Assembly: GCA_030066685.1 (NCBI GenBank) | Contig: JASJBF010000050.1 | Span: 1 to 36,284, forward strand | Reading direction: 5' to 3' | DNA: 36,284 bases | DNA from: Kiloniellales bacterium | GTDB lineage: Bacteria; Pseudomonadota; Alphaproteobacteria; Kiloniellales; JAKSBE01 | In this document: piece after piece, positions 20,453 through 36,284 of the stretch | Numbering within the stretch: the stretch's first letter is position 1 | Layout: every line of letters starts with the position of its first letter | The notes under the pieces: generated by a model | Database searches by the model: none | The model's input: only the letters and a program-made list of their open reading frames with translations | What the model was told of the DNA's origin: nothing | Position numbers and translations under genes: made by a program

Positions 20453-20839
20453 CTACCCTTCAACCTGCTCCCAGATGCCCTTGCCGTTCCGACAGGCGAC
20501 GCGCGTTGCGGTCTCGTCGGCCGGCCGCGCATAGACGACCTCGCGGTACACCCGGCAGTATTCGCCCGACAGATTCTTGAAGGTCCTCAAAGGGGTCACG
20601 CTGCCCTTCAGATTGCCTTGGCTGTCGCGCCATTCCAGCTTCGATTGGCTTAGCCGCGTCTCAAGCGCTTTCTGCACTGCTTCTCCGGCCTGCTCGCGGT
20701 TCGCCGGAGACAGCCCGGAGTAGAGGTCCGTGGCCTTCTTTGCACTGCTTCCCGAGCAAGCGAGCATAAGCAAGCTGCCGAGCATGCAGAGACAAACGAC
20801 GACGATCCGTCCCGAACGCGGGCATCGGGGCGAGATCAT
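20453..20839 (-). CDS. Lipoprotein with RT0821/Lpp0805-like surface-antigen domain
   Basis: About 128 residues. A basic start (RCPRSGR) leads into a hydrophobic segment ending in a lipobox, LMLAC|SGSS, so the Cys near residue 28 should be lipidated. The C-terminal ~65 residues (LEWRDSQGNLKGSVTPLRTF, EYCRVYREVVYA, RVACRNGKGIWEQ) match the 17-kDa surface-antigen-like domain with its paired Cys. The same domain closes the anti-sigma factor at 23333-24004: VEWRNPTSGSRGQV, QWCREYRE, YGIACRNAGGEWR. The start overlaps the Hint gene stop (ATGA) and the hydroxylase follows after four bases, so all three are one transcript. It may be an envelope sensor or competitor for the anti-sigma ligand. Confidence 0.8.
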   Translation of the reverse strand: MISPRCPRSGRIVVVCLCMLGSLLMLACSGSSAKKATDLYSGLSPANREQAGEAVQKALETRLSQSKLEWRDSQGNLKGSVTPLRTFKNLSGEYCRVYREVVYARPADETATRVACRNGKGIWEQVEG

Positions 20840-21813
20840 TGCCAGCCTTTGGCGATCGCTTCGGCCTCTTCCTCCAGCGTCAGGTCGCGCCCTCTCTGCT
20901 CGACTGACCCGAAACCGTCCCCGGCCTCACCGCCTTCGCCAGACTCCCCGCCTTCCCCAGATTCTCCGCCTTCGCCGGACTCCCCGCCTTCGCCGCCTTC
21001 ACCCGACTCGCCGCCCTCGCCGCCGGAACCACCCTCGCCACCGCCGGATCCGCCTTCTCCGCTACCGGAATTGCCCCCCTCGCCGCCTTCGCCGCTGCCG
21101 GAATTGCCGCCCTCACCGCCTTCGCCGCCACCGGAATCGCCGCCTTCGCCGCTACCGGAATTGCCGCCCTCGCCTTTGTTGTGGACCAGGAAGCCGTTGG
21201 CGAAGTAGCGGTGGTCGCCATCGAGCAGGAGATTGTAGAGCGGGGTTTTGGGATCCGCGGCCGCGCTCTCGATTGAGACAAGCCGGTAGGGAGCCAGTTC
21301 GAGCGCGGCGGCCTCGGCGCCGATGGCTCCGGCCTGAACCGATTCGAGCCCAGGCTCCGCCAGCAAGACGTCTCCGGGAACCAGCGGCGCGATGCGCAAG
21401 TCTTTCGTTTCCAAGGCCGTGGCCTCAGGGTCAACGGCCTTCCAACCGGCAAGAGTCATGAAGGGGTGCTCGGCGGTAAAGAAGGCCGGACCGCCGTTGA
21501 AGCCGTAAAGCCGACGCCGCCCCAGGAGAGGCCGCTCAACGCCGATGACCTGATTCTGGCCGCCGCCTGGCGCACGCACGCAATCGCCGACCGAGACAGC
21601 CTCGATCGACCGCTCGCGCCCGTCCGCCATGCGGACCAATGTGCCAGCGATGAAGCAGGACTTGGCCCACGCGCTGGCCGCCTCCAGCGTAACCTTCGGC
21701 CCTCCGGGCTCGAGGTCGAAGGTCACCGGAAGGGCTGTCAGGACCAAGGCAATCGCGCTGGTCGATGCCAGGAGATGAAGGCGCACTCTGGGACGCTTAT
21801 GCAAAGCTGCCAA
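20836..21813 (-). CDS. Exported Hint-domain protein with Gly/Glu-rich repeat tail
   Basis: About 325 residues from a TTG at 21813 with GGGAG six bases upstream. Residues ~12-35 form a signal/anchor segment (LHLLASTSAIALVLTALPV). A Hint (hedgehog/intein) module follows at about residues 53-212. Its N-terminal nucleophile Cys53 is in SCFIAGTLVRMADG, block B is TAEHPF (Thr113, His116), and the C-terminal motif is YFANGFLVHN ending His211-Asn212. The next residue is Lys, not Cys, Ser or Thr, so full protein splicing is unlikely. Cys-driven N-terminal cleavage and Asn-driven C-terminal cleavage remain possible. Residues ~213-305 are GEGG, NSGSGEGG and ESGEGG repeats, followed by an acidic helical tail (LTLEEEAEAIAKGWQ). 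The segment HLLASTS is shared with the GEG-repeat protein upstream. Confidence 0.85.
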   Translation of the reverse strand: MAALHKRPRVRLHLLASTSAIALVLTALPVTFDLEPGGPKVTLEAASAWAKSCFIAGTLVRMADGRERSIEAVSVGDCVRAPGGGQNQVIGVERPLLGRRRLYGFNGGPAFFTAEHPFMTLAGWKAVDPEATALETKDLRIAPLVPGDVLLAEPGLESVQAGAIGAEAAALELAPYRLVSIESAAADPKTPLYNLLLDGDHRYFANGFLVHNKGEGGNSGSGEGGDSGGGEGGEGGNSGSGEGGEGGNSGSGEGGSGGGEGGSGGEGGESGEGGEGGESGEGGESGEGGESGEGGEAGDGFGSVEQRGRDLTLEEEAEAIAKGWQ

Positions 21814-22015: not shown

Positions 22016-22462
22016 TCAATTCGCAGTCTGACGGCTTCTCGACCCGTAGTCGTCGCCGCTTTCGCCAGCTTCTCCGGCCTCGCCAGCTTCACCGGCTTCA
22101 CCGGCTTCACCGGATTCACCTGCGTCGCCGCCGCCATCGCCGCCTTCACCGCCTTCGCCGCCTTCGCCGCCTTCACCACCTTCACCGCCTTCGCCGCCTT
22201 CGCCGCCTTCGCCGCCTTCGCCGCCTTCACCACCTTCACCGCCTTCGCCACCTTCGCCGCCTTCGCCGCCTTCACCACCTTCACCGCCTTCGCCGCCTTC
22301 GCCGCCTTCGCCGCCTTCACCGCCGTCATCGGCAAGTGCGGCCTTGATCGCCGGCGTCGGGGACACTGAATCCAGGCTCAGGGGAACTGCCGCCAAAGTA
22401 GCCGCGAGCAAGCTGGTCGAAGCAAGCAGGTGAAACTTCTTGAGCTTGTTTTGATCGGGCAT
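22016..22462 (-). CDS. Exported (Gly-Glu-Gly)n repeat protein
   Basis: 148 residues. Good Shine-Dalgarno (GGAGAG) seven bases before the ATG at 22462. The N-terminus MPDQNKLKKFHLLASTSLLA continues as a hydrophobic signal to about residue 30 and shares HLLASTS with the Hint protein. From about residue 46 the protein is an almost pure run of Gly-Glu-Gly, about 20 Glu units, then GDGGGDAGESGEAGEAG and a polar tail (DDYGSRSRQTAN). I know no characterised family with this composition. It would be a highly acidic, disordered, exported peptide, possibly calcium-binding, adhesive or polymer-like. It is first gene of the operon leading to the Hint protein, and its promoter region faces the ECF sigma gene. 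A Lys/Ala-rich frame on the same strand is a shadow of the repeat. Confidence 0.75.
   Translation of the reverse strand: MPDQNKLKKFHLLASTSLLAATLAAVPLSLDSVSPTPAIKAALADDGGEGGEGGEGGEGGEGGEGGEGGEGGEGGEGGEGGEGGEGGEGGEGGEGGEGGEGGEGGEGGDGGGDAGESGEAGEAGEAGEAGEAGESGDDYGSRSRQTAN
22141..22322. repeat. 9-bp tandem repeat coding for Gly-Glu-Gly
   Basis: About 20 copies of a nine-base unit (plus-strand reading GCCGCCTTC with GCC/ACC variants). Third-position variation between GGC and GGT is mostly confined to a few units that recur as a longer period (…ACCACCTTCACC…). This suggests expansion by duplicating blocks of several units. Such a tract should vary in copy number between strains. Confidence 0.85.
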
Positions 22463-22805: not shown

Positions 22806-23336
22806 GTGGACGAAACGACGCGCCAGGAAATGCTGTCGCTGCTGCCCCGATTGCGGCGTTTCGCCTATGCATTGACCGGATCGAGCGACGCTGGAGACGA
22901 ACTCGTGCAGGCGACCTATGAACGGGCGATCAAACATATCGACAAGTGGCAGCCGGGAAGCCGCTTGGACAGCTGGATGTTCCGCATCGCCCGCAACCTC
23001 AATTTGAACCTCCTCCGCGACCAGAAACTGCGTGGCCCCTCGATCGACCCCTCGGCAGCCGACCTGGTGACCAATGTTGATGGCCGGCGTTCGGCGGAAG
23101 CCCGGTTGACCTTGGAAAGGGTTCGGAACCACATAGACCAGCTTCCCGAAGACCAGCGGAGCATCGTTCTGCTGATTTGCGTCGAGGGCCTCTCCTATGC
23201 CGAGGTCTCAGGAATCTTGGACCTGCCGGTCGGCACCATCGCAAGCCGTTTGGGGCGCCTGCGACTTCGGCTCAAGGCGATCGCTGACGGGCACGATCAC
23301 GACGCGCCCCGGGAAAGAAAGGCAGACAAGGCATGA
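22806..23336 (+). CDS. ECF-family RNA polymerase sigma factor
   Basis: Sigma-70 family, extracytoplasmic-function group, 176 residues. Region 2 is visible as RRFAYALTGSSDAGDELVQATYERAIKHIDKW and SRLDSWMFRIARNLNLN. Region 4 is visible as LPEDQRSIVLLICVEGLSYAEVSGILDLPVGTIASRLGRLRLRLK, which carries the -35-binding helix-turn-helix. The GTG at 22806 follows GGAGCGGAG. Its stop overlaps the anti-sigma ATG (ATGA). It is divergent from the GEG-repeat/Hint operon, which it most plausibly transcribes along with itself. Confidence 0.93.
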   Translation: MDETTRQEMLSLLPRLRRFAYALTGSSDAGDELVQATYERAIKHIDKWQPGSRLDSWMFRIARNLNLNLLRDQKLRGPSIDPSAADLVTNVDGRRSAEARLTLERVRNHIDQLPEDQRSIVLLICVEGLSYAEVSGILDLPVGTIASRLGRLRLRLKAIADGHDHDAPRERKADKA

Positions 23337-24004
23337 GTGAAAGGATCGAACTCGATACCCTCGTGGCCTACGCGGACGGAGAGCTATCCGGCGCCGAGCA
23401 CGCCCGCGTCGAGGCAGAGATCGCAGCCGATTCGGCGACGGCACAGATCGTCGCGGACCTGCAGGATGGCAAGAAGCTCCTGCGCTCCGCCTATGACGAC
23501 CCGGTGATCCTGGAGGTTCCGAAAGATCTGCGGACCTCGATCGAGGGGCTACTGGCCAAGGCTCCCGACGGTCGAAGCCCGGGCACGACCGGCGGGGTGA
23601 CCGTCTGGTCCGCCTGGTTTCACCCAACCCGCTTTGCCGTGTCCTTCGCACTGATGCTCTTGGCGGCCGCCGGCGGCTACCTGCTGGCGGAATGGCGTTT
23701 CGAGCAGAAGCTCGCGGAACTCGATGCCGCGAGGGCGCAGGACCTGCAGCTCTTGGAGCAGGCGATCGGTCAGGCGCTCGAGAAGCATCTGAGCGGCCAG
23801 GTCGTGGAATGGCGCAACCCGACCAGCGGCAGCCGCGGCCAGGTGGTCCCGGTCCGAACCTTCAGATCCGAACAAGGCCAGTGGTGCAGGGAGTACCGCG
23901 AAGCCTTGATTTCGGAGAGCGGCGAAGAGGTCCGCTACGGCATCGCCTGTCGCAACGCGGGTGGCGAATGGCGGACACGGCTCCGACTCCTCGGCGAAGG
24001 ATGA
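23333..24004 (+). CDS. Membrane anti-sigma factor with RT0821-like periplasmic domain
   Basis: About 223 residues. The N-terminal cytoplasmic anti-sigma part reads ELDTLVAYADGELSGAEHARVEAEI, without the HxxxCxxC zinc site of ZAS proteins. One membrane span follows at about residues 99-118 (RFAVSFALMLLAAAGGYLLAEW), then a coiled segment (EQKLAELDAARAQDLQLLEQAI). A C-terminal periplasmic domain has paired Cys (WCREYREAL, YGIACRNAGGEW). That domain closely resembles the whole mature lipoprotein at 20453-20839. Co-translated with the sigma factor through an ATGA overlap, it should hold the sigma factor at the membrane until an envelope signal arrives. The shared domain hints at the signal pathway, but the ligand is unknown. 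Confidence 0.85.
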   Translation: MSERIELDTLVAYADGELSGAEHARVEAEIAADSATAQIVADLQDGKKLLRSAYDDPVILEVPKDLRTSIEGLLAKAPDGRSPGTTGGVTVWSAWFHPTRFAVSFALMLLAAAGGYLLAEWRFEQKLAELDAARAQDLQLLEQAIGQALEKHLSGQVVEWRNPTSGSRGQVVPVRTFRSEQGQWCREYREALISESGEEVRYGIACRNAGGEWRTRLRLLGEG

Positions 24005-25549: not shown

Positions 25550-26545
25550 CGTTAAGAATCTTTCGCACATCTGAGTGGGGGTTGGTGGCCCTCGAATCTG
25601 GTTGGGTTGGTTTTGCAGGAATCAACTGCTCCAGAGAGGAGAAGCCACGATGGAAGAGGCGGAACGGCTGTGCGATGCGGAGCGCTACGAGCGCTCGGAG
25701 GCTCGTCGGGACACCCGGGCCGGCAGTTATCAGCGCAAGCTCCATACGATGGCCGGCGAGGTCAGCCTGAAGGTGCCCAAGCTGCGTCGCCAGACGTTCG
25801 AGACGGCGATCATCGATCGCTATCGCCGGCGCGAGAGCTCCGTCGAGGAGGCCTTGATCGAGATGTATCTCGCCGGCGTGTCAGTGCGGCGTGTCGAGGA
25901 CATCAGCGAGGCGTTGTGGGGCACGCGGGTCTCGCCAGGGACAGCTTCGAACCTGAACAAGAAGATCTATGCCCCGATCGAGGCCTGGCGGAACCGGCCG
26001 ATCTCGGGCACACACCCCTCCCTTTACCTCGACGGCACCGTCTTGAAGCGCAGCTGGGCCGGTGAGGTCAAGAACGTCTCCTTGCTGGTGACGACCGGCG
26101 TGAACGCCAACGGCTACCGGGAGACCCGCGGCATCTGCGAGGGCGCCACGGAGAGCCGCGCGGCCGCCCAGGCGAGGGCCGGCGAGTTGCTTGCCAAGCT
26201 CGAGGCCATGAAGCTCAGCAAGGTCGCCGAGCGGCTCGAGCAGACGATTGATGAGACCCTGGTCTACTACGCCTTCCCCGACGAGCACCGGCGCCGGATA
26301 CGCACCAACAACCCCCTCGAGCAGATCATGCGCGGGATCCGAAGGCGAACCCGCGTGGTCGGCGCCTTCCCCGACGGCCAATCGGCCCTCAACTTGGCCG
26401 CGGCCAGGTCGAGGCACATCGCCGGCACCAAGTGGTAAGCCAAGCGCTACATGAACATGAACCTGCTCAAACAGCAAAGGCAGACCGCCTAACCAAGGAC
26501 CTCACCAACTCCAAACACAAAGTGCGAAAGATCCTCGACACTACC
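25545..26545 (+). mobile_element. Decayed IS256-family insertion sequence (left border of the island)
   Basis: About 1.0 kb, shorter than the 1.2-1.4 kb usual for the family. Its ends share the core ATCTTTCGCAC (25558-25568, inverted at 26522-26532). The right end (26516-26545) is 29/30 identical, in inverted orientation, to 36185-36214 at the window's far edge. I see no clear target-site duplication. Confidence 0.8.
25650..26492 (+). pseudogene. IS256-family transposase, internally deleted and with a nonsense codon
   Basis: Mutator-type (IS256) transposase. Present are the DNA-binding-like N-part (GSYQRKLHTMAGEVSLKVPKL, ETAIIDRYRRRESSVEEALIEMYLAGVSVRRVEDI), the first catalytic Asp in SLYLDGTVLK and the catalytic Glu in NNPLEQIMRGIRRRTRVVGAFPDG. 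The segment that should hold the second catalytic Asp is gone: sequence jumps from ETRGICEGATES to RAAAQARAGELLAKLEAM. A TAA at 26436-26438 replaces a codon after GTKW, while the same frame goes on to the native end (KRYMNMNLLKQQRQTA, stop 26490-26492). It cannot be active. Confidence 0.85.
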
Positions 26546-26624: not shown

Positions 26625-27332
26625 CTAAAATTCGACACCAGCCGAGAGAATAGAGTGCTCTAGCAGGGAATTCGCAATTCTTGCGCTTGGCCAGCACTCC
26701 CGAATCTCGAAAATCAAGACACTCTCCAGATCGAGGAGATCATTCGCGGCATCATCGTGAACGGCCTCAGCAAAGATAACCACTTTTCGCGTAGAATCCG
26801 ACACAGCTGACAGGCAACTTTGCTTGTGAGACCATTTGCGTGCGTGGGCTTTACCAGATGTATCCCTAAACGTCACTTCTCCCGATGGCAACGAAATTTG
26901 CGATCCATCGAATCCATCATACTGCTCACCACCCTCCGAGTATTGTACCGATAAATCCCCAACAATTTTTTCCGCATCCAAAACTGCCACCGGCAAGGCA
27001 TAACGAGCTGAAACAGAATTACACAACATGACTAGCGGATGGAGCACCGGAAAGTCGTTCCGTGTTCTAATCCGTCTCAAAATCGACTCTGCCGCCATTC
27101 GGTATTTGGTTGGATTTGTCCCGGTGGCGCGATAGGCAGCACGCCAAGACTGCACAGGTCCCAGTTGGCCCTCATTTTCCACCATTGCGAGGCGTTCTCT
27201 CGCGATCGCCAAATTCTTCTCGATAGCCATGCCAACTTCAGCATGATTTGTGACGCCATCCACAACGATGAACGCCGTGCAAAGCGAAGGGAACTTCTTT
27301 GCGATATCAGATGAGTAAGAGAAGCGAGGCAA
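26625..27332 (-). CDS. Stand-alone B3/B4 (PheRS-beta editing-type) domain protein
   Basis: About 235 residues from a TTG at 27332, the only start that keeps the domain whole; it is seven bases after the chorismate mutase stop. The B3/B4 fold is recognisable: AYRATGTNPTKYRMAAESILRRI, then FPVLHPLVMLCNSVSARYALPVAVLDAEKI, and GEVTFRDTSGKAHARKWSHKQSCLSAVSDSTRKVVIFAEAV. In the phenylalanyl-tRNA synthetase beta subunit this domain clears mischarged Tyr-tRNA(Phe). Free-standing copies are common but mostly uncharacterised. It ends the operon. In the company of aromatic amino-acid-forming enzymes it could protect translation from the product, which is inference. The codon use is AT-richer than the backbone, as in all genes of this operon. 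Confidence 0.8.
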   Translation of the reverse strand: MPRFSYSSDIAKKFPSLCTAFIVVDGVTNHAEVGMAIEKNLAIARERLAMVENEGQLGPVQSWRAAYRATGTNPTKYRMAAESILRRIRTRNDFPVLHPLVMLCNSVSARYALPVAVLDAEKIVGDLSVQYSEGGEQYDGFDGSQISLPSGEVTFRDTSGKAHARKWSHKQSCLSAVSDSTRKVVIFAEAVHDDAANDLLDLESVLIFEIRECWPSARIANSLLEHSILSAGVEF

Positions 27333-27339
27333 AGCTATA

Positions 27340-27621
27340 TCAAACTCCCTTCTTGCGGAACTGCAGATCAGTCAATTCAGATATTATGACCCTATAAATG
27401 TTCTTGACTGTTTCCTTATGCCCGCCAGCACCGGACGCCATTTCTCCAACATTATTCAGAACCATCTGAACACGATCAGCGCCCCTAATTTCCTCTGAAG
27501 TACTCTTGTAATCACTTGCGCGTAATGCCAATTCAATACGCTCCACCAGCAGCGAAACGATTTGATAGTCCAACTCATCGATCTTGTTCCGGATTTCTGT
27601 AAGTTCAAGTGGAGTCGTCAT
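27340..27621 (-). CDS. AroQ-type chorismate mutase
   Basis: All-helical chorismate mutase of 93 residues, the single-domain AroQ size. ELTEIRNKIDELDYQIVSLLVERIELALRASDYK gives the first helix, with the Arg (IRNKID) and Lys (DYK) expected to bind chorismate's carboxylates. VKNIYRVIISELTDLQ is the last helix. The ATG at 27621 follows GAGG; the longer frame upstream lies in the ubiX overlap. The substrate may be chorismate or an aminated chorismate made by the operon's own synthase, as with PapB in p-aminophenylalanine routes. The sequence alone does not tell. Confidence 0.85.
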   Translation of the reverse strand: MTTPLELTEIRNKIDELDYQIVSLLVERIELALRASDYKSTSEEIRGADRVQMVLNNVGEMASGAGGHKETVKNIYRVIISELTDLQFRKKGV

Positions 27622-27649
27622 GCTCGCCTCATCAAAGTCCACGGAAGGT

Positions 27650-28285
27650 TCATTTTGTCGCGCTCGCCAAGCGTTCATTTGCGCTCGCCGAAACAGTAGC
27701 GCTCTCAGGCTGATCTTCGCCCCATCGGACCACACCTGGTGCGTCTAATTCGAACTGATCCAAAATCCTTGCAATAGTCTGATTGATTATGTCATCAATA
27801 GATTTGGGTTTGGTATAAAACGACACCACTGGTGGAAAAATCACTCCCCCGCATTCTGAAACAGTCAGCATATTCCTCAAGTGAATATTACTAAGTGGGG
27901 TCTCACGGACAACCAATACCAGCTTTCGCCCCTCCTTCAAAACAACATCTGCCGCCCGGGTCAGCAAGTTGCCAGTTGCGCCCGACGCTATCTCGCCCAA
28001 ACTGCGCATAGAACACGGCACCACGATCATCCCCATCGTACGGAACGAACCCGAAGAGATGGGAGCCGCAATGTCCTGAATCGCATGATGGTAATCGGCG
28101 AGTTCCCTTAACTGAGAAGCCGAGACGTCAGTTTCCAGTGAGCGCGTCTGCTCCCCAGCCTTGGAAATAACAAGGTGAGTTTCAATTCCAAGCGTGCGCA
28201 AGATGTTGAGCAAACTTAGGGAGTAAACGATTCCTGTCGCACCAGAAATTGCGACGATAATGCGTTGTTTTCGTGCCTCAGTCAC
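27650..28285 (-). CDS. ubiX: UbiX-family flavin prenyltransferase
   Basis: 211 residues. Makes prenylated FMN, the cofactor of UbiD decarboxylases. Flavin-binding start RIIVAISGATGIVYSLSLL, then FRTMGMIVVPCSMRSLGEIASGATGNLLTRAADVVLKEGRKLVLVVRETPLSNIHLRNM and GVIFPPVVSFY are the full family signature. GTG start at 28285. It lies 16 bases after the flavodoxin-like gene and two genes below the UbiD homologue, so it supplies that enzyme. The extra C-terminal tail (GEDQPESATVSASANERL) is not typical. Confidence 0.93.
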   Translation of the reverse strand: MTEARKQRIIVAISGATGIVYSLSLLNILRTLGIETHLVISKAGEQTRSLETDVSASQLRELADYHHAIQDIAAPISSGSFRTMGMIVVPCSMRSLGEIASGATGNLLTRAADVVLKEGRKLVLVVRETPLSNIHLRNMLTVSECGGVIFPPVVSFYTKPKSIDDIINQTIARILDQFELDAPGVVRWGEDQPESATVSASANERLASATK

Positions 28286-28301
28286 CCTTTATCCCTCGGA
28301 G

Positions 28302-28964
28302 TCATGTCGTCGCTTGGACAACCCGTTCGTTTGCTGTCTGTGGTGATAAGTATGTCTGTATTTCTGCCGGCGGGATTGAACTGAGCAATTGCGCCATTCC
28401 AACCATGCGGCCTATCAAGTCTCTGACTGACTGCAAGCCCTCTTCATCCTCGAGCGCTTTTCCTGGCGTCCCTCCTTGCAGGACTGCCGGGTAGCCACTG
28501 CCGACCAAGATCATCCGGTTAAGTAGAATATTGTTGGCTATTTGGTTAAATACTGACACATGACCGTAGCGCCTTCCGGTTATCACACACCCAGCGACCT
28601 TATTGGCAAGCGGTCGCGTAAAACGCAAATAACCGACCCCAGCTCTTTCGATAAATATTTGCATTGGATGCGCTAGACCATACCCATGAACCGGCGCCAT
28701 GTAGATTATTCCATCGGCCGAGATCAAGCGCTCTATTATTGCTGGCATGTCATCTTGATGCGCGCAGACAGACTGACGTGTATTGCATTCGCCACATCGA
28801 CCACATCGACTTATGTCGAACTCTCGAAGTCGATTGATATTCGATGACACCGCCTTCGCTGCAAGTAGCTGCGCTATGTAATCAGCCACTCGCTCTGTAT
28901 TCCCGTTTGCTCTACTGGAGCCAGTAATAATCTCGAAATGTGCGGATGATGACACTACCGGCAT
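28302..28964 (-). CDS. Flavodoxin-fold NAD(P)H:FMN oxidoreductase
   Basis: About 220 residues. FMN-binding loop ITGSSRANGNTERVADYIAQLL, Cys cluster CGRCGECNTRQSVC followed by DDMPAIIERLISADGIIYMAPVHGYGLAHPMQIFIERAG, and a later GCVITGRRYGHVSVFNQIANN. This is the iron-sulfur-flavoprotein-like/NADPH-dependent FMN reductase group. The ATG at 28964 is preferred to the GTG at 28970 because GGAGG is seven bases ahead of it. Between ubiD and ubiX, it may supply reduced FMN to UbiX or carry out a separate reduction of the pathway intermediate. The four-Cys motif suggests an Fe-S cluster or dimer contacts. Confidence 0.85.
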   Translation of the reverse strand: MPVVSSSAHFEIITGSSRANGNTERVADYIAQLLAAKAVSSNINRLREFDISRCGRCGECNTRQSVCAHQDDMPAIIERLISADGIIYMAPVHGYGLAHPMQIFIERAGVGYLRFTRPLANKVAGCVITGRRYGHVSVFNQIANNILLNRMILVGSGYPAVLQGGTPGKALEDEEGLQSVRDLIGRMVGMAQLLSSIPPAEIQTYLSPQTANERVVQATT

Positions 28965-28986
28965 ATTCACCCTCCAGTATATGTCT

Positions 28987-30411
28987 CTATGGTACCAGCG
29001 TGGTGACGCGCCGAAAGCGCTCCCGTTCCGCTACTGGAACGGTCAGATCCAATAAGTATTTATCTGTCGTCGGCTCCGTGGTCCCTGCCAAATACCCTGC
29101 CGCTTGCGAAGGGTCCAGCGGAAAACCTCGTTGCTTTGGAAAGATAACCAGATCTCTGCTTGGCTGGAATCGGGTGGCCATCGCCCAAAGAAGGTCGCTT
29201 TCGGAGCTGACATCGATATCAGTGTCCACCAAAAAGACCACCTTTACCAATAAGTGATTTTTCGTCGCCGCATGCAGGACACGCTCTGAAAACCCTTCAT
29301 TTTCGTTCTTCTTTTCAATCCGCAGTGCCAACATCAGTTGGCCGCCGGCTGCCGCCAAGTAACGAGCATCGTGGACCGTCGCATCATTCGACAACGCGTT
29401 ACTAAGCTGGCCGATCATCCCAGCCTCAGTCGGCAACGCCAACAACTCCGACTGTTCCTTTCCCGGTCCGAGAAAGGTCTGGTAAATTGGATTGATTTGG
29501 CTCGTTACCTGCGAAACATTGACTACCGGTAGTTTTGCTTTTCCCATACCCATGTAGCCAAGGAATTCGGGCATTCCGTATCTTGACTCCGAACCGGAAT
29601 ACTCATCAAGCAACTCTCCAGTGATTTCGCCTTCAATGACGATTTGACTTTGCGATAAACACCATGCGTTCTGAGTCTTACAACGACTGATTTCAATGGC
29701 GGCCCCTTGTACACCTCCCGCAAACTCAAGCTCGCTTTCATCTTCACGAATAAAAGGCGAAGAAATCGAACTTGTAAGATATACGATTGGGCCAGCTCCA
29801 ATGTTTATTGAAATCGGCAGTCCCGATCCGTTTCTTTGCGCTTTTCGGTACAGATTGTCGAGATCTCTTCCAGGTAGCATCCAAATCGTCAATCGATGTG
29901 CATCGACCACTCGCATACGATGAATTGAGAGGTTCGCAACTCCGTTCTCTGGATCGTGCGCAAACACCAATCCGGATGTCAGATAGGGTCCTGCATCGAG
30001 TGCCGTTACTGAAAGGGTTGGCAATGCGCCAAGCTTTTCCGGCCAACTGATGGCCTGGCAAGGCGCTTCGCCTAGTTCTCTTGCTGGTGTGCGAGTTGAA
30101 AGCCTTTGCGAAATCGTTCGCGCACCCGTGCCCTCCGCGCAACCCAAGAGAAACTCACACCGCCTACGCGCACCGAATAGGCCCATCAGAACAGGCATCT
30201 CGTAACCGGTCGGCCGTGTATAAATTACTACTGGCTCCTCTCCAGACCGCGGGTGGGCGGGAGATGTAGCAAAGTTGGCAAGGTAATGCTGCGCTATTTC
30301 GAACCTTGGATCGAGATCGTCATCAACAACGATTGGCATCTCGCCACATTTTTCCAGTGCCGCCATCGCTGATCTTAGGTCCGGTGCACATATTGATTTC
30401 GTATCGCTCAT
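28987..30411 (-). CDS. UbiD-family prFMN-dependent (de)carboxylase
   Basis: 474 residues, normal for the family. prFMN/metal-binding regions are visible as [19 protein letters not shown] and [16 protein letters not shown]. The catalytic Glu region is [33 protein letters not shown], and the C-terminal half has [37 protein letters not shown]. Family members decarboxylate aromatic, heteroaromatic or alpha,beta-unsaturated acids. The ATG at 30411 overlaps the TrpB-like gene's stop (ATGA), implying coupled synthesis. UbiX and the flavin reductase follow. It is not the ubiquinone-pathway copy by context; the substrate is likely an aromatic acid of this pathway. Confidence 0.92.
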
Positions 30412-31607
30412 GCCGACATACGCTTGAGAACAAAATCGATATCTTTGTCACCCCGTCCCGAAAGATTAACGAGGATGTTCTGGTCCGAGCGCAATTTCGT
30501 TGCACGCCGCATAGCATATGCGACAGCGTGAGCGCTCTCCAGTGCCGGTATGATACCCTCTTCCCGTGATAGCGCAAAAAACGCGTCTATGCATTCTTGA
30601 TCAGTCGCTACTTCATACCGCACTCGGCCAACGTCCTTCAAATGGCAGTGTTGAGGGCCAACTCCAGGATAGTCCAATCCGGACGCAATGGTATGCACCG
30701 GCGACGGATTACCTTTGTCGTCCTGCAGATAATAGCAACGGAAACCGTGCAGATACCCTGGCTTTCCAAGAGTCAGCGTTGCCGCATGCCTATCACCCTC
30801 AAGTCCCTCGCCGGCAGGTTCAACGCCAACAATATCTACACCTTCATCATCCAGAAAGCCGTTAAACAGCCCGATGGCGTTTGATCCACCACCAACACAG
30901 GCAGTTACCTCATCTGGGAGCCGCCCTGTCTGGTCGATAAACTGCTCGCGTGCTTCCAGCCCCACAATTGATTGGAACGTTGCAACCATTTCCGGGTATG
31001 GGCTTGGGCCTACCACTGATCCAATGGCAAAGAAAATATTCTTCGGATCTTTCATAAAGGCACCAAACGCGCTGTCTACGGCTTCCTTCAGGGTTCCGGC
31101 TCCTTCGTCAACCGGGACCAGATTGCAGCCCAAGACTTTCATCTTGGAAACATTCGGGTGTTCTTTAGCAATATCGACCACACCCATGTGGATCTCGCAT
31201 TCCATGCCCATAAGCGCACTTGCCGTAGCCAAGGCAACGCCATGTTGCCCCGCACCGGTCTCCGCCAAAATTCGGTTCTTGCCCAACTTCTTTGCAAGCA
31301 GAACTTGGCATATGCAGTGATTGATTTTGTGCGCGCCGGTGTGATTGAGATCTTCGCGCTTTAGATAGATTTGAGCGCCGCCGCCTGCAGAGAGGCGCTT
31401 TGCATGGTATATTGGACTAGGTCGGCCGATGTAGGTCTTCCGCAGCCGATCGACCTCCTCCGCATAACCCGGGTCATTAACGACGGAACGAAATCCGACC
31501 TCAATCTCCTTCATTATTCCACGAAGATTGTCGTCATCGATGGGACCGCCATAATCACCAAAATATCCATCCTGATTAGAGATGATGAGTGGAGATAGCA
31601 CGTTCAT
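30408..31607 (-). CDS. trpB: Tryptophan synthase beta-chain homologue without an alpha partner
   Basis: PLP enzyme of 399 residues closely following Trp[15 protein letters not shown] at the start, the Schiff-base Lys94 in [14 protein letters not shown], Glu116 in [15 protein letters not shown], the phosphate cup [32 protein letters not shown] and [14 protein letters not shown] are all retained. The HKIN segment continues HCICQ where usual TrpB has NxxGQ, placing His and Cys near the cofactor. No trpA or other trp genes are in the operon. It therefore probably joins L-serine-derived aminoacrylate to free indole or another nucleophile instead of channelled indole. AGGA lies before the ATG at 31607. 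It overlaps ubiD. Confidence 0.9.
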
Positions 31608-31663
31608 GGGATTGTCCTACTCAATGCCTATCGTGACTTTTCATTACAAGTCGACAGAATTAA

Positions 31664-32005
31664 TCAACTGACTAAATCATCGACAACGAACACCAATGTC
31701 TCGCTATCCGACGAGCCGCGCGATCGGTGCCGAACGCCATCCGGAATAGAAAACGCCATATCCGGTTCACAATCAAAGCTCGCGTCATCAAAAATAATTG
31801 TAAACCGTCCTTTGAGAACATAACCTTGGTGGCCGACAAGGCACCAATGTTCCTCATTGAAGCCAGGCGGCAACTCAAGAAGACGAATCCGTTTGCCGTT
31901 TGCTTCAAAAATTTTCACTCGACCATCAGCGCCCGGCTTCGACCAAGCTGTCCATGGAGCTTTGTCGAGGGAAAAAGTAACTGGATCGTAGGATTCCTTT
32001 GACAT
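31664..32005 (-). CDS. Small cupin-domain protein
   Basis: 113 residues, single beta-barrel cupin. The core reads LLELPPGFNEEHWCLVGHQGYVLKGRFTIIFDD, then a second half MAFSIPDGVRHRSRGSSDSETLVFVVDD. His in EEHW and His in GVRHR are candidate metal ligands. The usual HxH…E pattern is incomplete, so it may be a ligand-binding or isomerase-type cupin with no oxygenase activity. The ATG at 32005 is chosen over the GTG at 32011 because GGAG lies six bases upstream. Located between the amidotransferase and TrpB-like genes; no specific role can be read. Confidence 0.75.
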   Translation of the reverse strand: MSKESYDPVTFSLDKAPWTAWSKPGADGRVKIFEANGKRIRLLELPPGFNEEHWCLVGHQGYVLKGRFTIIFDDASFDCEPDMAFSIPDGVRHRSRGSSDSETLVFVVDDLVS

Positions 32006-32042
32006 GTTCACTCCATTTTCCTGATCGACTATGGCTAGCGAT

Positions 32043-32651
32043 CTAGTTGTAAACTGGACGTTTGATTTCAGGATACAAGTAATTCTTCAAAAAGCTGTCA
32101 AAGATACTCAGCCCACTATCTGTGGCGATACTCTCAGGATGAAACTGAACGCCTTCGATTGGCATCGTTCGATGCCTCAAGCCCATAATATAACCGTCAT
32201 TGTCCGAGTTAGCGGTGATAACGAGTTCGGGTGGCAATACATCTGAACTAACGATAAGTGAATGATACCGAGCGGCCATAAAAGGTTTGCCGGAAGTGTG
32301 GGTGAACACACCGAGCCCGTCATTCGATATCAAGGAAGATTTGCCGTGCATGATATTTCCTGCGCAAATGACGTTGCCGCCAAAAGCAAGGCCAATTGCC
32401 TGGTGCCCGAGGCAGACACCAAGGATTGGGATCGCTCCGTTCACTTCACGGATCAACTCTGGATAACGCGCATCTTCCGGTCGACCAGGCCCTGGCCCTA
32501 AGAGAATGAAATCGGTTGCCACATTCCTGATTTCTCTTTCAAGACATGGATCGTCGCACCGTAGCGTCACCGTCTGAAGGCCAAGCGTTTTCAGATATTG
32601 CTCAATGATGAAGACGAAGCTGTCATACGCATCGACTAAGAGCACTTTCAT
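32043..32651 (-). CDS. trpG: Class I glutamine amidotransferase (TrpG/PabA-like)
   Basis: 202 residues. Supplies ammonia from glutamine to the partner chorismate enzyme. The triad is clear: Cys80 in ILGVCLGHQAIGLAFGG, and His and Glu in GVQFHPESIATDSG. The oxyanion region is LLGPGPGRPEDA. The start MKVLLVDAYDSFVFIIEQYL is typical, and the ATG overlaps the synthase stop (ATGA). TrpG and PabA cannot be told apart from sequence, and some organisms use one for both. Here it is dedicated to the adjacent component I. Symbol given for type. Confidence 0.9.
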   Translation of the reverse strand: MKVLLVDAYDSFVFIIEQYLKTLGLQTVTLRCDDPCLEREIRNVATDFILLGPGPGRPEDARYPELIREVNGAIPILGVCLGHQAIGLAFGGNVICAGNIMHGKSSLISNDGLGVFTHTSGKPFMAARYHSLIVSSDVLPPELVITANSDNDGYIMGLRHRTMPIEGVQFHPESIATDSGLSIFDSFLKNYLYPEIKRPVYN

Positions 32652-34126
32652 GCCACAAGCTCCTCATCCGTAAGGGCTTTAAAGACTGCTCTCATTTTGA
32701 CGATCGTTTCTTGCCATTCATTCTCTGGAACGGAATCGGCCACGATGCCTGCACAGGCCCGCAAGCTGTAGATTTGGTCCCGATAACTGGCCATTCGGAT
32801 GCACAATGCCATGTTCGCGAAGTCCCCCGGACCTATCAGGCCGACAGCACCGGCATAGGCTTCCCGCCGAGATACTTCCAGATCTTCTATTATCTCCATC
32901 GCCCTGATTTTCGGGGCGCCGGTCATTGTACCGGCTGGAAAAGTCGCCTTCACTAGATCAATAACATCGCATCCGAATGCCATTTCGCCGGTCACGGTTG
33001 AGACCAAATGAAACAGATGCGAAAACTCCTCTACAGACATCAAACTCTCGACATTTAGCGTGTCGGTTTTGGAAACGCGAGCTATATCGTTACGACAAAG
33101 GTCGACCAGCATTGTATGTTCGGCACATTCCTTTGGGGACGACGTAAGAGCGTGCACTAGCTGTTGATGCTCTTGCTTTGTCTTTTTGCCTATCGTCCCA
33201 GCAATTGGGCGCATTGAAACGCCCTTGGCATCTAAGCGGACATAGTTTTCTGGGCTCGCACCAATCAGTTCGCATCCCGCGACTTTACAAAGAAACATAT
33301 AGGGTGACGGGTTGAGTTCTCTTAACCGCCTATAAAGCGTTAGCGGTTCCATCGACGAGGCGACTTTCACCTCATGACCGATTTGCACTTGATAGATATC
33401 GCCCAGGCGAATATGATTTAGAGCTACTTGAACTTTCGATAGATAATCGTCTTTTGTTGTTGAGAATTTTACATTAAAGTTCGGCGCAATATCGCCCCTA
33501 TCGGCTATGGCAAATTTTGGAAGCAATTCACGTTCGATATCAATCGTCGGCTCAGGAAATATGTCCGATCGCGTGACGCTAACACGAACGCTGCCTGATT
33601 TTGCAACCACTAGAAAAGATTGAAATAGACGCAGGAAAACCAGAGGAAACTCCGGCCCCCTTATTCGATATGGCAACCTCTCGATCAGACACGCTGCATC
33701 GTATGAGAGACAAGCAAGGAAGCCGAAATTGAACTCTTCATCGTTCTGAGATCGAGAAAACATGCCATTGATAGATCTAAGCACCCGCCAAGCTTCGTCT
33801 CCTGAATAGATCTTCCCCCTGCCGCCTTCAACTCTTTGCTCGCCAAGTTGTTCGTTGACGCAGGTTTCGATTGCGTTTTGAAGCAACCGAGGCGCCGTGA
33901 TGAGAATTCGGTCACGGTAGATTTCAATTGTTGCCAACGCCCCGACGCCAAGAATCGATTCTCGGCAGTCCACCTCGGGGCCTGCACAGGATTCCAAAAG
34001 AAATACGTCGTCCTTGCTCAATTTTTGAATGGCAAGAATATAGGCTGAAAAGATATCCAGATTTGGAACATGGATGTGCGAGGTGGATGTGTCTAGTTCA
34101 ATCAAGTGAGTTGCCTCTCGAAGCAT
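32648..34126 (-). CDS. trpE: Anthranilate synthase component I-like chorismate enzyme
   Basis: 492 residues. N-terminal domain keeps the FLLES segment that forms the Trp feedback site in TrpE. The catalytic half has LGDIYQVQIGHEVK, PSPYMFLCKVAGCELIGASPENYVRL, MRPIAGTIGKKTKQEH, MLVDLCRNDIARV, FPAGTMTGAPKIRAMEIIEDLE and AGIVADSVPENEWQET. PIAGT, with Ala where ADC synthases have the PIKGT Lys, argues for 2-amination of chorismate (anthranilate or aminodeoxyisochorismate), not 4-amination. Departures from TrpE include IGKK for RPRG and Cys in DLCRND. The gene is second in the operon, 23 bases after the exporter. The ribosome site before the ATG at 34126 is weak. Confidence 0.88.
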   Translation of the reverse strand: MLREATHLIELDTSTSHIHVPNLDIFSAYILAIQKLSKDDVFLLESCAGPEVDCRESILGVGALATIEIYRDRILITAPRLLQNAIETCVNEQLGEQRVEGGRGKIYSGDEAWRVLRSINGMFSRSQNDEEFNFGFLACLSYDAACLIERLPYRIRGPEFPLVFLRLFQSFLVVAKSGSVRVSVTRSDIFPEPTIDIERELLPKFAIADRGDIAPNFNVKFSTTKDDYLSKVQVALNHIRLGDIYQVQIGHEVKVASSMEPLTLYRRLRELNPSPYMFLCKVAGCELIGASPENYVRLDAKGVSMRPIAGTIGKKTKQEHQQLVHALTSSPKECAEHTMLVDLCRNDIARVSKTDTLNVESLMSVEEFSHLFHLVSTVTGEMAFGCDVIDLVKATFPAGTMTGAPKIRAMEIIEDLEVSRREAYAGAVGLIGPGDFANMALCIRMASYRDQIYSLRACAGIVADSVPENEWQETIVKMRAVFKALTDEELVA

Positions 34127-34149
34127 AAAGAGTGGATGCCCGTTCGAGA

Positions 34150-34788
34150 TTATATGACTTCACTGACTACGCCATGTACGCCGATGATCGCTGTCGCGAT
34201 GAGAAACAAGCCGAGTGCCGGGATCAGGTACTTGAAAAACCGCATTTTCCCGAAGACGTCTGCCGACAAGCTACCAAGGACGCCATAAAGAATGAAGCAG
34301 ATCAGCGCAATCGAACCAATCGGAAAGAAGACGAATACAAGCGTTCCGGTTGTGGGGATTTGTGGTGAAATGAATAGGGGAAAGAGTGCGACAAAAAACA
34401 ATATTGCCTTCGGATTGAAGAGGGCAATAATCATACCTGAAGCAAATCTCGACGATAGCGAATCTCGTTTCGTGTCCGCTTGCGCGCCACTTAAACCGAT
34501 TTTCAGGTGATCGCGGATAAAGCCGATACCTATGTATCCGATGTACAGCGCTCCAAGAAACTGAATTGCTAGAAATGTGGCGGGATTGAGCGCGAGAATC
34601 GAATTCAGAGCAAGAAACGCAACGGCGGCCTGAAACAAGGAGGCGACTACGTTCCCGGCAGCCGCCGGAAGCACGCCACGTACGCCGTATTGCATGCCAT
34701 GCGCAAGAGCGAGCGCCATGCTCGGGCCTGGGATAATAGAGACGGCGAAGATTGTCGTGCAGTACAAGAGCAAGGTTGTAAAGTCCAT
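34150..34788 (-). CDS. LysE/RhtB-family amino-acid exporter
   Basis: 212 residues, about six membrane spans. Start MDFTTLLLYCTTIFAVSIIPGPSMALALAHGMQYGVRG contains the family's PGPxM motif. ALFNPKAILFFVALFPLFI is the NPK motif, and AIQFLGALYIGYIGIGFI is the third span. The family exports lysine, homoserine, threonine, cysteine and similar amino acids. As first gene of the operon it makes an amino acid or close analogue the likely end product. The ribosome site before the ATG at 34788 is weak; the promoter lies at 34858-34886. Confidence 0.9.
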   Translation of the reverse strand: MDFTTLLLYCTTIFAVSIIPGPSMALALAHGMQYGVRGVLPAAAGNVVASLFQAAVAFLALNSILALNPATFLAIQFLGALYIGYIGIGFIRDHLKIGLSGAQADTKRDSLSSRFASGMIIALFNPKAILFFVALFPLFISPQIPTTGTLVFVFFPIGSIALICFILYGVLGSLSADVFGKMRFFKYLIPALGLFLIATAIIGVHGVVSEVI

Positions 34789-35825: not shown

Positions 35826-36106
35826 CCGGAGATGATCAGCAAGGCGCTGGAAGAGTAGGCCTATCGCAGCGGCGTCCATCTCAACTTCATCGAGCCCGGC
35901 AAGCCGGTCCAAATCGCCATTGTCGAGAGCTTCAACGGCCGGTTCCGCGATGAATGCCTCAACCGGTTCCGCGATGAATGCCTCAACGAACACCGGTTCC
36001 TAAACTTGGCCCACGCCCGTCGCATCATCGAGGCCTGGCGGGTCGACTACAACAGCGACCGGCCACACTCGGCACTAGGTTACGCCACACCAGAAGACTT
36101 CGCGTC
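35826..36106 (+). pseudogene. IS3-family OrfB transposase C-terminus, with nonsense codon
   Basis: PEMISKALEE, stop (TAG for the usual Trp), AYRSGVHLNFIEPGKPVQIAIVESFNGRFRDECLN…RFLNLAHARRIIEAWRVDYNSDRPHSALGYATPEDFA. The catalytic Glu of the DDE triad lies in IVESFNG. The two Asp-bearing regions are missing. A short OrfA-like coiled piece (ELLKELEAENAKLKEL) precedes it near 35690-35735. A 24-bp tandem duplication interrupts the domain. Confidence 0.8.
35940..35987. repeat. Exact 24-bp tandem duplication inside the IS3 fragment
   Basis: Two identical 24-base units (35940-35963 and 35964-35987), coding RFRDECLN twice. The duplication keeps the frame. Confidence 0.95.
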
Positions 36107-36139
36107 ATCTCACCAGGGGCGTGCCCCTGGTGAGATGAC
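36104..36139. repeat. Perfect 17-bp inverted repeat with 2-base centre
   Basis: The left arm GTCATCTCACCAGGGGC (36104-36120) and right arm (36123-36139) are perfectly complementary around GT. It lies at the end of the IS3 transposase reading frame. It could be a head-to-head junction of two IS3-type ends or an intrinsic hairpin without T-run. Confidence 0.9.
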
Positions 36140-36184
36140 AAACAGTGCCCGCAAAGAGCAAACTCAAGCCGCCGAAGTCTCAGG

Positions 36185-36284
36185 GGTAGTGTCCAGGATC
36201 TTTCGCACTTTGTGCTTGGGGACTGGTGGCCGATCCGGTCAGGCAATCATCTCCTTCTGTCTGAGCAGCTGCATGTTCATGTAG
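36185..36284 (-). mobile_element. Inward-facing end of a second IS256-family element (partial)
   Basis: The 30 bases 36185-36214 match the right end of the IS at 25545-26545 at 29 positions, inverted. Beyond it, the minus strand encodes the last residues of the same transposase family (see 36239-36284). The element continues past the window. Confidence 0.85.
36239..36284 (-). CDS. IS256-family transposase, last 14 residues (runs off window)
   Basis: The minus strand at the edge reads YMNMQLLRQKEMIA then TGA, equivalent to YMNMNLLKQQRQTA of the copy at 26492. The stop is about 25 bases from the inverted repeat, as in that copy. Whether this copy is intact cannot be seen. Confidence 0.75.
   Translation of the reverse strand, partial: YMNMQLLRQKEMIA

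Follow-up and report, generated by a model that had tools for sequence, protein, structure and literature searches.

Chorismate is known to be diverted into non-proteinogenic amino acids by the PapABC route to 4-aminophenylalanine and by the bacilysin cluster. For the benzoxazolinate cassette of the C-1027 (sgc) cluster, the published account describes SgcG as a flavin mononucleotide (FMN)-dependent, [Fe-S]-containing dehydrogenase of 2-amino-2-deoxyisochorismate (ADIC), and the sgc-type ligase as acting on 3-enolpyruvoyl-anthranilate (OPA) (PMC10098953). CtdA is described as a stand-alone editing protein; knock-out strains misincorporate canavanine and show poor growth on it (PMC10018355). 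In AroY, the residues His327, Lys363, His436 and Arg188 touch water molecules that are interpreted as marking the two catechol hydroxyls, and Glu289 is the proposed catalytic acid (PMC5656893). We analysed a 36,284-nucleotide stretch of DNA, the entire contig C50 of a Kiloniellales bacterium genome (JASJBF010000050.1; hereafter the window), in which ten genes include relatives of SgcG, CtdA and AroY.

We consider that these genes very probably form a cluster that has moved horizontally and makes a toxic aromatic amino acid, immunity being provided by a B3/4-type transfer RNA (tRNA) deacylase. Our preferred outline of the route, to which we assign a probability of roughly 0.6, comprises entry through ADIC and OPA, loss of pyruvate and CO2, alanylation by a TrpB-type enzyme, export, and B3/4 immunity.

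The genes occupy the minus strand from 34788 to 26625 as ten open frames with an intergenic spacing of -4 to +56 bases. Their individual guanine-plus-cytosine (GC) content is 0.45-0.52, against 0.675 for window positions 1-25000. An earlier reading of this DNA, made from the sequence only, had described a ten-gene, low-GC operon, and its frames, named Pfam families, tight spacing and drop in GC are all borne out; judging by the spacing, the ten genes are presumably co-transcribed. They are as follows.

34150..34788, minus strand: LysE-family amino acid exporter, gene 1 (Pfam LysE, 4e-20)
32648..34126, minus strand: TrpE-like protein, predicted SgcD-type ADIC synthase (Pfam Chorismate_bind; in a clade with SgcD)
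32043..32651, minus strand: TrpG glutamine amidotransferase subunit (Pfam GATase, 5e-48; 48% identical to the sgc amidotransferase)
31664..32011, minus strand: small cupin, candidate enolpyruvyl hydrolase (Pfam Cupin_2)
30408..31607, minus strand: TrpB-type pyridoxal phosphate beta-replacement enzyme (Pfam PALP; TIGR00263 at 511 bits, above cut-off)
28987..30411, minus strand: UbiD-family, AroY-like prenyl-FMN decarboxylase (three UbiD Pfam domains)
28302..28970, minus strand: predicted SgcG-type FMN/[Fe-S] ADIC dehydrogenase (Pfam FMN_red; 49% identical to SgcG)
27650..28285, minus strand: UbiX flavin prenyltransferase (Pfam Flavoprotein; 233 bits, above the TIGR00421 cut-off)
27340..27621, minus strand: PchB-like chorismate mutase (CM)-fold protein (Pfam CM_2, 2e-16), its start most likely the ATG at 27621
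26625..27332, minus strand: stand-alone B3/4 protein, putative aminoacyl-tRNA deacylase (Pfam B3_4, 2e-16)

Recurrence of the gene set and its separation from tryptophan synthesis

A neighbourhood search in other genomes, which the sequence-only reading had proposed, placed the core together in 17 further loci, as befits a conserved, travelling cluster; recurrence on this scale indicates a gene association beyond chance. A scan of relatives with UbiD, the best 80 of 346 being kept, was followed by tblastn with all ten proteins and located the set in Paenibacillus sinensis, P. tarimensis, P. zanthoxyli and Micromonospora phaseoli. Further searches used the cupin as a marker, through a profile limited to 1e-15 whose matches were either 4e-56 or better, or none. 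In the Paenibacillus family, 4 of 344 genomes had the marker, two of them new; the Micromonospora order gave 11 of 397, ten of them new, and the actinobacterial class 3 of 394, one of them new. A single, already known genome matched among 299 of the Paenibacillus phylum, and one among 289 of the window's class, namely its own. A single-sequence cupin search of 97 relatives of the window gave weak matches in ten genomes, all at no more than 34% identity. Counting the window and P. zanthoxyli, the total is 18 loci: the window, five Paenibacillus-type and 12 actinobacterial.

UbiD, the CM-fold protein, the cupin, the SgcG-type flavoprotein, a TrpB and a B3/4 protein are co-located in all 18, across the three lineages. 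The exporter slot is held by LysE in the window, by AzlC-AzlD in all five Paenibacillus-type loci and by a major facilitator superfamily (MFS) protein in all 12 actinobacterial ones. Similarly, the window and Paenibacillus have an ordinary-type TrpB, and the actinobacteria a TrpB2 (TIGR01415, 616 bits and above cut-off in M. phaseoli). Three slots (export, TrpB and B3/4) have thus drawn on different sources around a constant core, which suggests that alanylation, export and B3/4 action are what selection maintains. An ATP-grasp amino-acid ligase adjoins the MFS exporter in the actinobacterial loci (LAL_C2 in M. phaseoli), and a MocR-type regulator, not found in the window, adjoins the cluster in both the Paenibacillus-type and the actinobacterial loci. 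Among other features of individual loci are a transposase-like gene, read by eye, between TrpG and the CM gene of one Paenibacillus-type copy (L115:12165-13532), a gene for a 2059-residue non-ribosomal peptide synthetase (NRPS) downstream of the P. sinensis cluster (L009:14523-20702), and a short-chain dehydrogenase/reductase directly after TrpG in L129.

The window's own genome separates this set from primary tryptophan synthesis. Two of its proteins pass the trpB cut-off, one on contig C54 at 650 bits and the operon TrpB at 511. Across the whole genome, Chorismate_bind (E 0.001) likewise matches two proteins, one on contig C1 and one in the operon, with no separate PabB seen beside them; the C1 protein is a TrpE above the NCBIfam cut-off (549.6 against 517.7 bits), under which the operon TrpE falls at 341.7 bits. 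Pfam detected no trpA, C, D or F among the ten operon proteins. An ordinary tryptophan operon is ruled out by the separate canonical TrpE and TrpB, and the earlier judgement that this is not the primary tryptophan operon holds; the circumstance named as fatal to it, that these are the genome's only standard copies, proved on checking not to be the case, a second TrpE being located on C1 and a second TrpB on C54. It is also scarcely credible that the genes serve ordinary aromatic or tryptophan metabolism as an accessory operon acquired by chance beside an exporter. All of the families are known, and several belong to primary metabolism, but with canonical TrpE and TrpB elsewhere, and the set kept across three lineages with cluster-specific residues, this explanation is largely refuted already.

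Predicted route and self-protection

On our preferred reading, TrpE/TrpG would convert chorismate and glutamine to ADIC, as SgcD does, and the SgcG-type flavoprotein would take ADIC to OPA. The cupin and/or the CM-fold protein would then remove the enolpyruvyl group to leave 3-hydroxyanthranilate, from which UbiD, with its UbiX-made cofactor, would release CO2 to give 2-aminophenol. TrpB would join 2-aminophenol to serine, yielding an amino-hydroxy-phenylalanine (4-amino-3-hydroxy- or 3-amino-4-hydroxy-) for export by LysE (AzlCD or MFS in the other lineages); the actinobacterial ATP-grasp ligase may couple the product to a second amino acid, and the B3/4 protein would hydrolyse tRNA mischarged with it. 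Homology establishes the families, the conserved cluster and the kinships to SgcD, SgcG, CtdA and AroY, and the entry steps and immunity are read from it; all enzyme activities are predicted, and the roles of the CM-fold protein and the cupin, like the identity of the product, are putative. The scheme of chorismate amination, decarboxylation, alanylation and export in the sequence-only reading fits the gene families. It knew of no described pathway with this set, and searches of open-licence PubMed Central text for the set or parts of it found none, an absence that carries little weight.

The entry steps are indicated by phylogeny, motifs and identity. In a tree of 21 rows, from which five long-branch rows of an earlier 23-row tree were left out, 11 rows (eight cluster TrpEs, SgcD and two SgcD-like proteins) fall on one side of a branch supported at 99/100, apart from TrpE and PabB; in the 23-row tree, which had no SgcD, the grouping of the eight cluster rows is supported at 100/99. 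DLCRND, TMTGAPK and A[SC]AG occur in all eight cluster TrpEs and in SgcD, and five canonical TrpEs differ at each. A fourth motif, QVQ[IL]G[HN] (QVQIGH in the window), is present in the four cluster TrpEs shown and in SgcD, and the five canonical TrpEs again differ. The operon TrpE thus looks like an SgcD-type ADIC synthase, so that amination of chorismate stands as first proposed, while the clade and the shared motifs point to ADIC and not to plain anthranilate.

The flavoprotein shares 49% identity with SgcG from S. globisporus C-1027, and those of all seven cluster loci compared are 47-53% identical to it over 192-213 residues. The four Cys of CxxCxxCx6C are present in 13 of 17 flavoproteins, that of the window included. 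The label of flavin reductase first given to this FMN_red protein consequently fits less well than that of a predicted SgcG-type ADIC dehydrogenase, which would supply a step that had gone unnamed. In four longer actinobacterial variants (L116, L120, L124 and L172), an AMP-binding enzyme, a prephenate-dehydratase-like protein, an amidohydrolase and an MFS protein are inserted before B3/4; the families were tested in L120, L124 and L172, the AMP-binding enzyme being identified by Pfam in L120 and by NCBIfam in L172, and similar AMP-binding frames of L116 and L124 were read by eye. The L172 enzyme shares 48-52% identity with the sgc ligase and with those of two sgc-like loci, and the insert bearing it is absent from M. 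phaseoli and L117. Because an OPA-type ligase sits in some actinobacterial clusters, OPA may be taken as a real intermediate, and the ligase gives independent support to its being made by the cluster.

Less is implied by homology for the step that follows OPA. The cupin is among the most conserved parts of the cluster (51-57% identity to nine members of other lineages), and its AlphaFold2 model has a mean predicted local distance difference test score of 90.5, but its fold matches (Foldseek also used) to TM1459, KdgF, AerE, BacB and RemF score alike, at Z 12-14, and do not discriminate. KdgF opens an alpha-carboxy enol ether, and hydrolysis of an enolpyruvyl ether by the cupin would, by analogy, be a chemically reasonable guess. 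The CM-fold family profile has PchB as its best PDB match (2.4e-12). R11, R28, K39, R50 and Q87, which we take to be the basic and Gln catalytic places of chorismate mutases, are invariant in all six aligned cluster CM proteins, and the acidic residue that meets the 4-hydroxyl in Escherichia coli CM is replaced, as expected for a substrate without a 4-hydroxyl, such as ADIC.

These features could be read as those of a split anthranilate-aniline route, in which TrpE/TrpG make ADIC, the CM-fold protein expels pyruvate to leave anthranilate, UbiD yields aniline, TrpB forms aminophenylalanine or N-aryl-diaminopropionate, and the flavoprotein only feeds UbiX reduced flavin. Such a route gives the CM protein a job, suited to ADIC, and accords with both the closeness of its family to PchB, an isochorismate-pyruvate lyase, and the lack in both of the acidic residue. 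However, an ordinary anthranilate synthase alone would cover the first two steps, the flavoprotein is 47-53% identical to SgcG and is kept even where UbiX is absent from the cluster, in Paenibacillus-type loci, and some clusters include an OPA-type ligase; we therefore regard the route as unlikely. Very unlikely, in our estimation, is a scheme that starts with rearrangement of ADIC to an amino-isoprephenate by the CM-fold protein; the flavoprotein would then make this product aromatic, UbiD would remove the ring carboxylate to give 4-aminophenylpyruvate, and TrpB would act elsewhere. The five invariant residues, at catalytic places of chorismate mutases, would agree with it, as would the fold matches to BacB and AerE, cupins of prephenate-derived pathways, but TrpB, present in 18 of 18 loci, is left without a task, and the ten genes include no aminotransferase, which the scheme requires but which could come from the host. 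Two further ideas were rejected by chemical reasoning: that the CM-fold protein carries out an aromatic Claisen rearrangement of OPA, OPA being an aryl vinyl ether without the sp3 carbon, and an indole formed through a Reissert-type closure, the ADIC amine ending para, not ortho, to the rearranged pyruvyl group. Some aromatic-acid UbiD enzymes are reported to require a small partner protein (PMC8379154). By analogy, the CM-fold protein may have a structural role of this kind.

For decarboxylation, the UbiD family profile gives as its best PDB matches the 3,4-dihydroxybenzoate decarboxylases 5o3n and 5ny5 (8e-134), taken as AroY from their name and matching residue numbers. At the positions of AroY His327, Lys363 and His436, counted by eye in the profile alignment, all 17 cluster UbiDs have Q/Q/F and keep the corresponding Arg and Glu289; the same combination occurs in none of 76 other UbiD loci, from the best 80 of 346 kept. 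R165, N160 and E282 (window numbering), which we assume to be the conserved UbiD active-site Arg, Asn and Glu, are likewise present in 17 of 17. Since three of the AroY residues that contact the hydroxyl-marking waters are replaced, the substrate is probably not a catechol acid, and decarboxylation of such an acid is thought unlikely; we infer an aminoaryl acid as substrate.

The cluster TrpBs keep the lysine of HTGAHKI(N), the glutamate of AETGAGQ, and the GGGSN and SGRGDKD motifs, and share EPAG and IA (for IS) changes. In the region that presumably lines the indole tunnel, HGF[RK]CY is found in six of six cluster TrpBs and none of five canonical ones. The AETGAGQ glutamate of TrpB activates an N-H nucleophile, so an arylamine would suit the enzyme. 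An alternative nucleophile is an OPA-derived, benzoxazine-type bicycle, the product being a tryptophan-like amino acid: both TrpB1 and TrpB2, normally users of indole, fill the slot, and OPA is a known benzoxazolinate precursor with a ligase in some clusters. No such ligase lies inside the cluster of the window, the Paenibacillus-type loci, L011 or L117, though the rest of the core is kept. An AMP-binding domain in the NRPS some 2 kb downstream in L009 may be set against that absence, but we consider the bicyclic nucleophile distinctly unlikely and retain 2-aminophenol in the preferred route.

The B3/4 protein and the exporter are best read as self-protection of the producer. A profile of seven cluster B3/4 proteins matches the canavanyl-tRNA deacylase CtdA (9f7e, 1.6e-31) and one other B3/4 protein, and the operon domain, like CtdA, stands alone, without a synthetase, as would suit a predicted tRNA deacylase. 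Protection of this type would imply a product that can be charged to a tRNA, and hence an antimetabolite; of the three roles suggested for the product by the sequence-only reading, the antimetabolite is accordingly favoured by the kinship to CtdA, and a signal or precursor less so. In a B3/4 tree the window protein groups with proteins of Roseomonas, Pseudochrobactrum and Rhizobium, and the B3/4 proteins of the other clusters stand apart (99/99, subject to a long-branch warning). On a Roseomonas mucosa plasmid (L164:4079-6274), a LysE gene comes after a window-type B3/4 gene; these are also the functions of the two outermost genes of the operon. Window-type B3/4 genes adjoin an AraC regulator on that plasmid as well as on plasmids of Rhizobium leguminosarum (L167:2206-4690) and Pseudochrobactrum (L165:3112-4666), and the exporter alongside is LysE in the first and a drug/metabolite transporter in the second, with none annotated in the third. 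A plasmid-borne B3/4 gene with an exporter may possibly be a stand-alone resistance module against toxic amino acids.

Several observations weigh against the outline that we prefer. TrpE and TrpG are confirmed in 13 of the 18 loci, or 12 of the 17 outside the window, a count that excludes the upstream part, not fetched, of five actinobacterial loci (L118, L119, L123, L125 and L172). UbiX lies within the cluster in one of 18 loci, the window; it is present somewhere in each of five genomes searched, and the window's own genome has a second copy on contig C2. TMTGAPK alone is not diagnostic, since the near form SMTGAPK occurs in one PabA-PabB fusion, and the cluster TrpE, like SgcD, retains the histidine linked to the release of pyruvate by anthranilate synthase. 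Of 17 flavoproteins, 4 lack the first Cys of the Fe-S motif. The CM-fold protein is without a clear job once OPA is aromatic, the pericyclic reactions of its fold being impossible for OPA. Monophyly of the cluster TrpBs is moderate (89/89), the window B3/4 is 28-39% identical to those of the other clusters (the higher values being from partial lengths), and the window LysE is 24% identical to that of Roseomonas. Finally, AroY is reported to refuse substituents ortho to the carboxylation site (PMC5656893), and 3-hydroxyanthranilate has an ortho amine; this counts against plain 3-hydroxyanthranilate as the UbiD substrate, unless the changed pocket admits it. As for the exact product, an amino-hydroxy-phenylalanine antimetabolite is our candidate, though a doubtful one.

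Genomic setting

The ten-gene set was probably acquired horizontally, and mobile-element remnants lie to either side of it:

25575..26438, plus strand: incomplete Mutator-family transposase at the left island edge (Transposase_mut, 4e-63; best stretch is positions 38-209 of 379)
36006..36284, plus strand: integrase-core fragment at the right end (rve_3, 6e-11)

Copies related to the left-edge transposase occur elsewhere in this genome, on contig C62, as well as in one genus sibling. The right end of the contig falls within an inverted relative of the left insertion sequence: positions 36185-36284 give a 77% inverted match to 26447-26545 and a 99% match to C62. For an empty site, a search of two genus siblings, both of them incomplete or fragmented, did not find the left flank, and the right edge is the contig end. 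Compared with known plasmids, the whole operon had no near match, and the cupin matched five records at 32-33% identity.

Consensus scans gave six promoter-like matches, with no excess over a shuffled mean of 7.9 (standard deviation 2.4), and 14 terminators against a shuffled mean of 10.1 (standard deviation 2.7); neither scan is used as evidence. With Rfam at the gathering score in six sources, two tRNAs alone matched, and no RNA control element was detected. Elsewhere in the window, two arrays of a 9-base repeat (20879-21078 and 22032-22360; 27 overlapping copies) sit inside the frames 20836-21813 and 22016-22462, the first of which has a Hint-type match under the Pfam cut-off. Positions 22806-24004 encode an extracytoplasmic function-type sigma factor and then an overlapping protein that has a 17 kDa antigen domain and also matches a zinc-finger (anti-sigma-like) family weakly.

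Comparison with known systems

Taken together, the proposal is of a new branch from chorismate that borrows the ADIC-OPA entry of enediyne synthesis, strips the enolpyruvyl and carboxyl groups, adds an alanyl group from serine by a TrpB-type enzyme to form a new antimetabolite, and uses tRNA deacylases of two B3/4 subfamilies for self-resistance. In this complete form it is tentative, and we would place it a little short of even odds. If true, it would represent a new way from chorismate to aromatic amino acids, with a natural TrpB that uses an arylamine in place of indole, a new substrate for a UbiD, and producer immunity through tRNA proofreading. The Q/Q/F residues of UbiD and the cupin are ready markers for mining, and B3/4 genes beside exporters may flag further hidden amino acid antibiotics.

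The benzoxazolinate cassette (C-1027 sgc, benzobactin) is matched in its entry steps, the operon TrpE and flavoprotein being likewise of SgcD and SgcG types; moreover, an amidotransferase gene adjoins sgcD, as TrpG adjoins TrpE here. The acyl-AMP ligase of that three-gene cassette is, however, not among the ten genes, which instead include UbiD, TrpB, the cupin, the CM-fold protein, the exporter and B3/4. CtdA belongs to the same protein family as the operon B3/4 but accompanies canavanine degradation (PMC10018355), whereas the operon protein sits in a predicted biosynthetic cluster and would hence be producer immunity. AroY is, by profile, the nearest solved relative of the operon UbiD, which differs from it at three substrate-contact residues in 17 of 17 cluster sequences.

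With the beta chain of tryptophan synthase, the operon TrpB shares a score above cut-off and the catalytic motifs; it differs in having no TrpA and an altered HGF[RK]CY region, and in its replacement by TrpB2 in the actinobacterial clusters. The cluster CM protein shares with PchB and the AroQ chorismate mutases a fold family and basic active-site residues. Bacilysin synthesis involves an amino-acid ligase, and the actinobacterial versions of the cluster likewise include one. A PapC-type prephenate dehydrogenase is not among the ten genes by Pfam, and, unlike in the PapABC and bacilysin pathways, the side chain of the operon's product would apparently come from serine and not from the enolpyruvyl group of chorismate.

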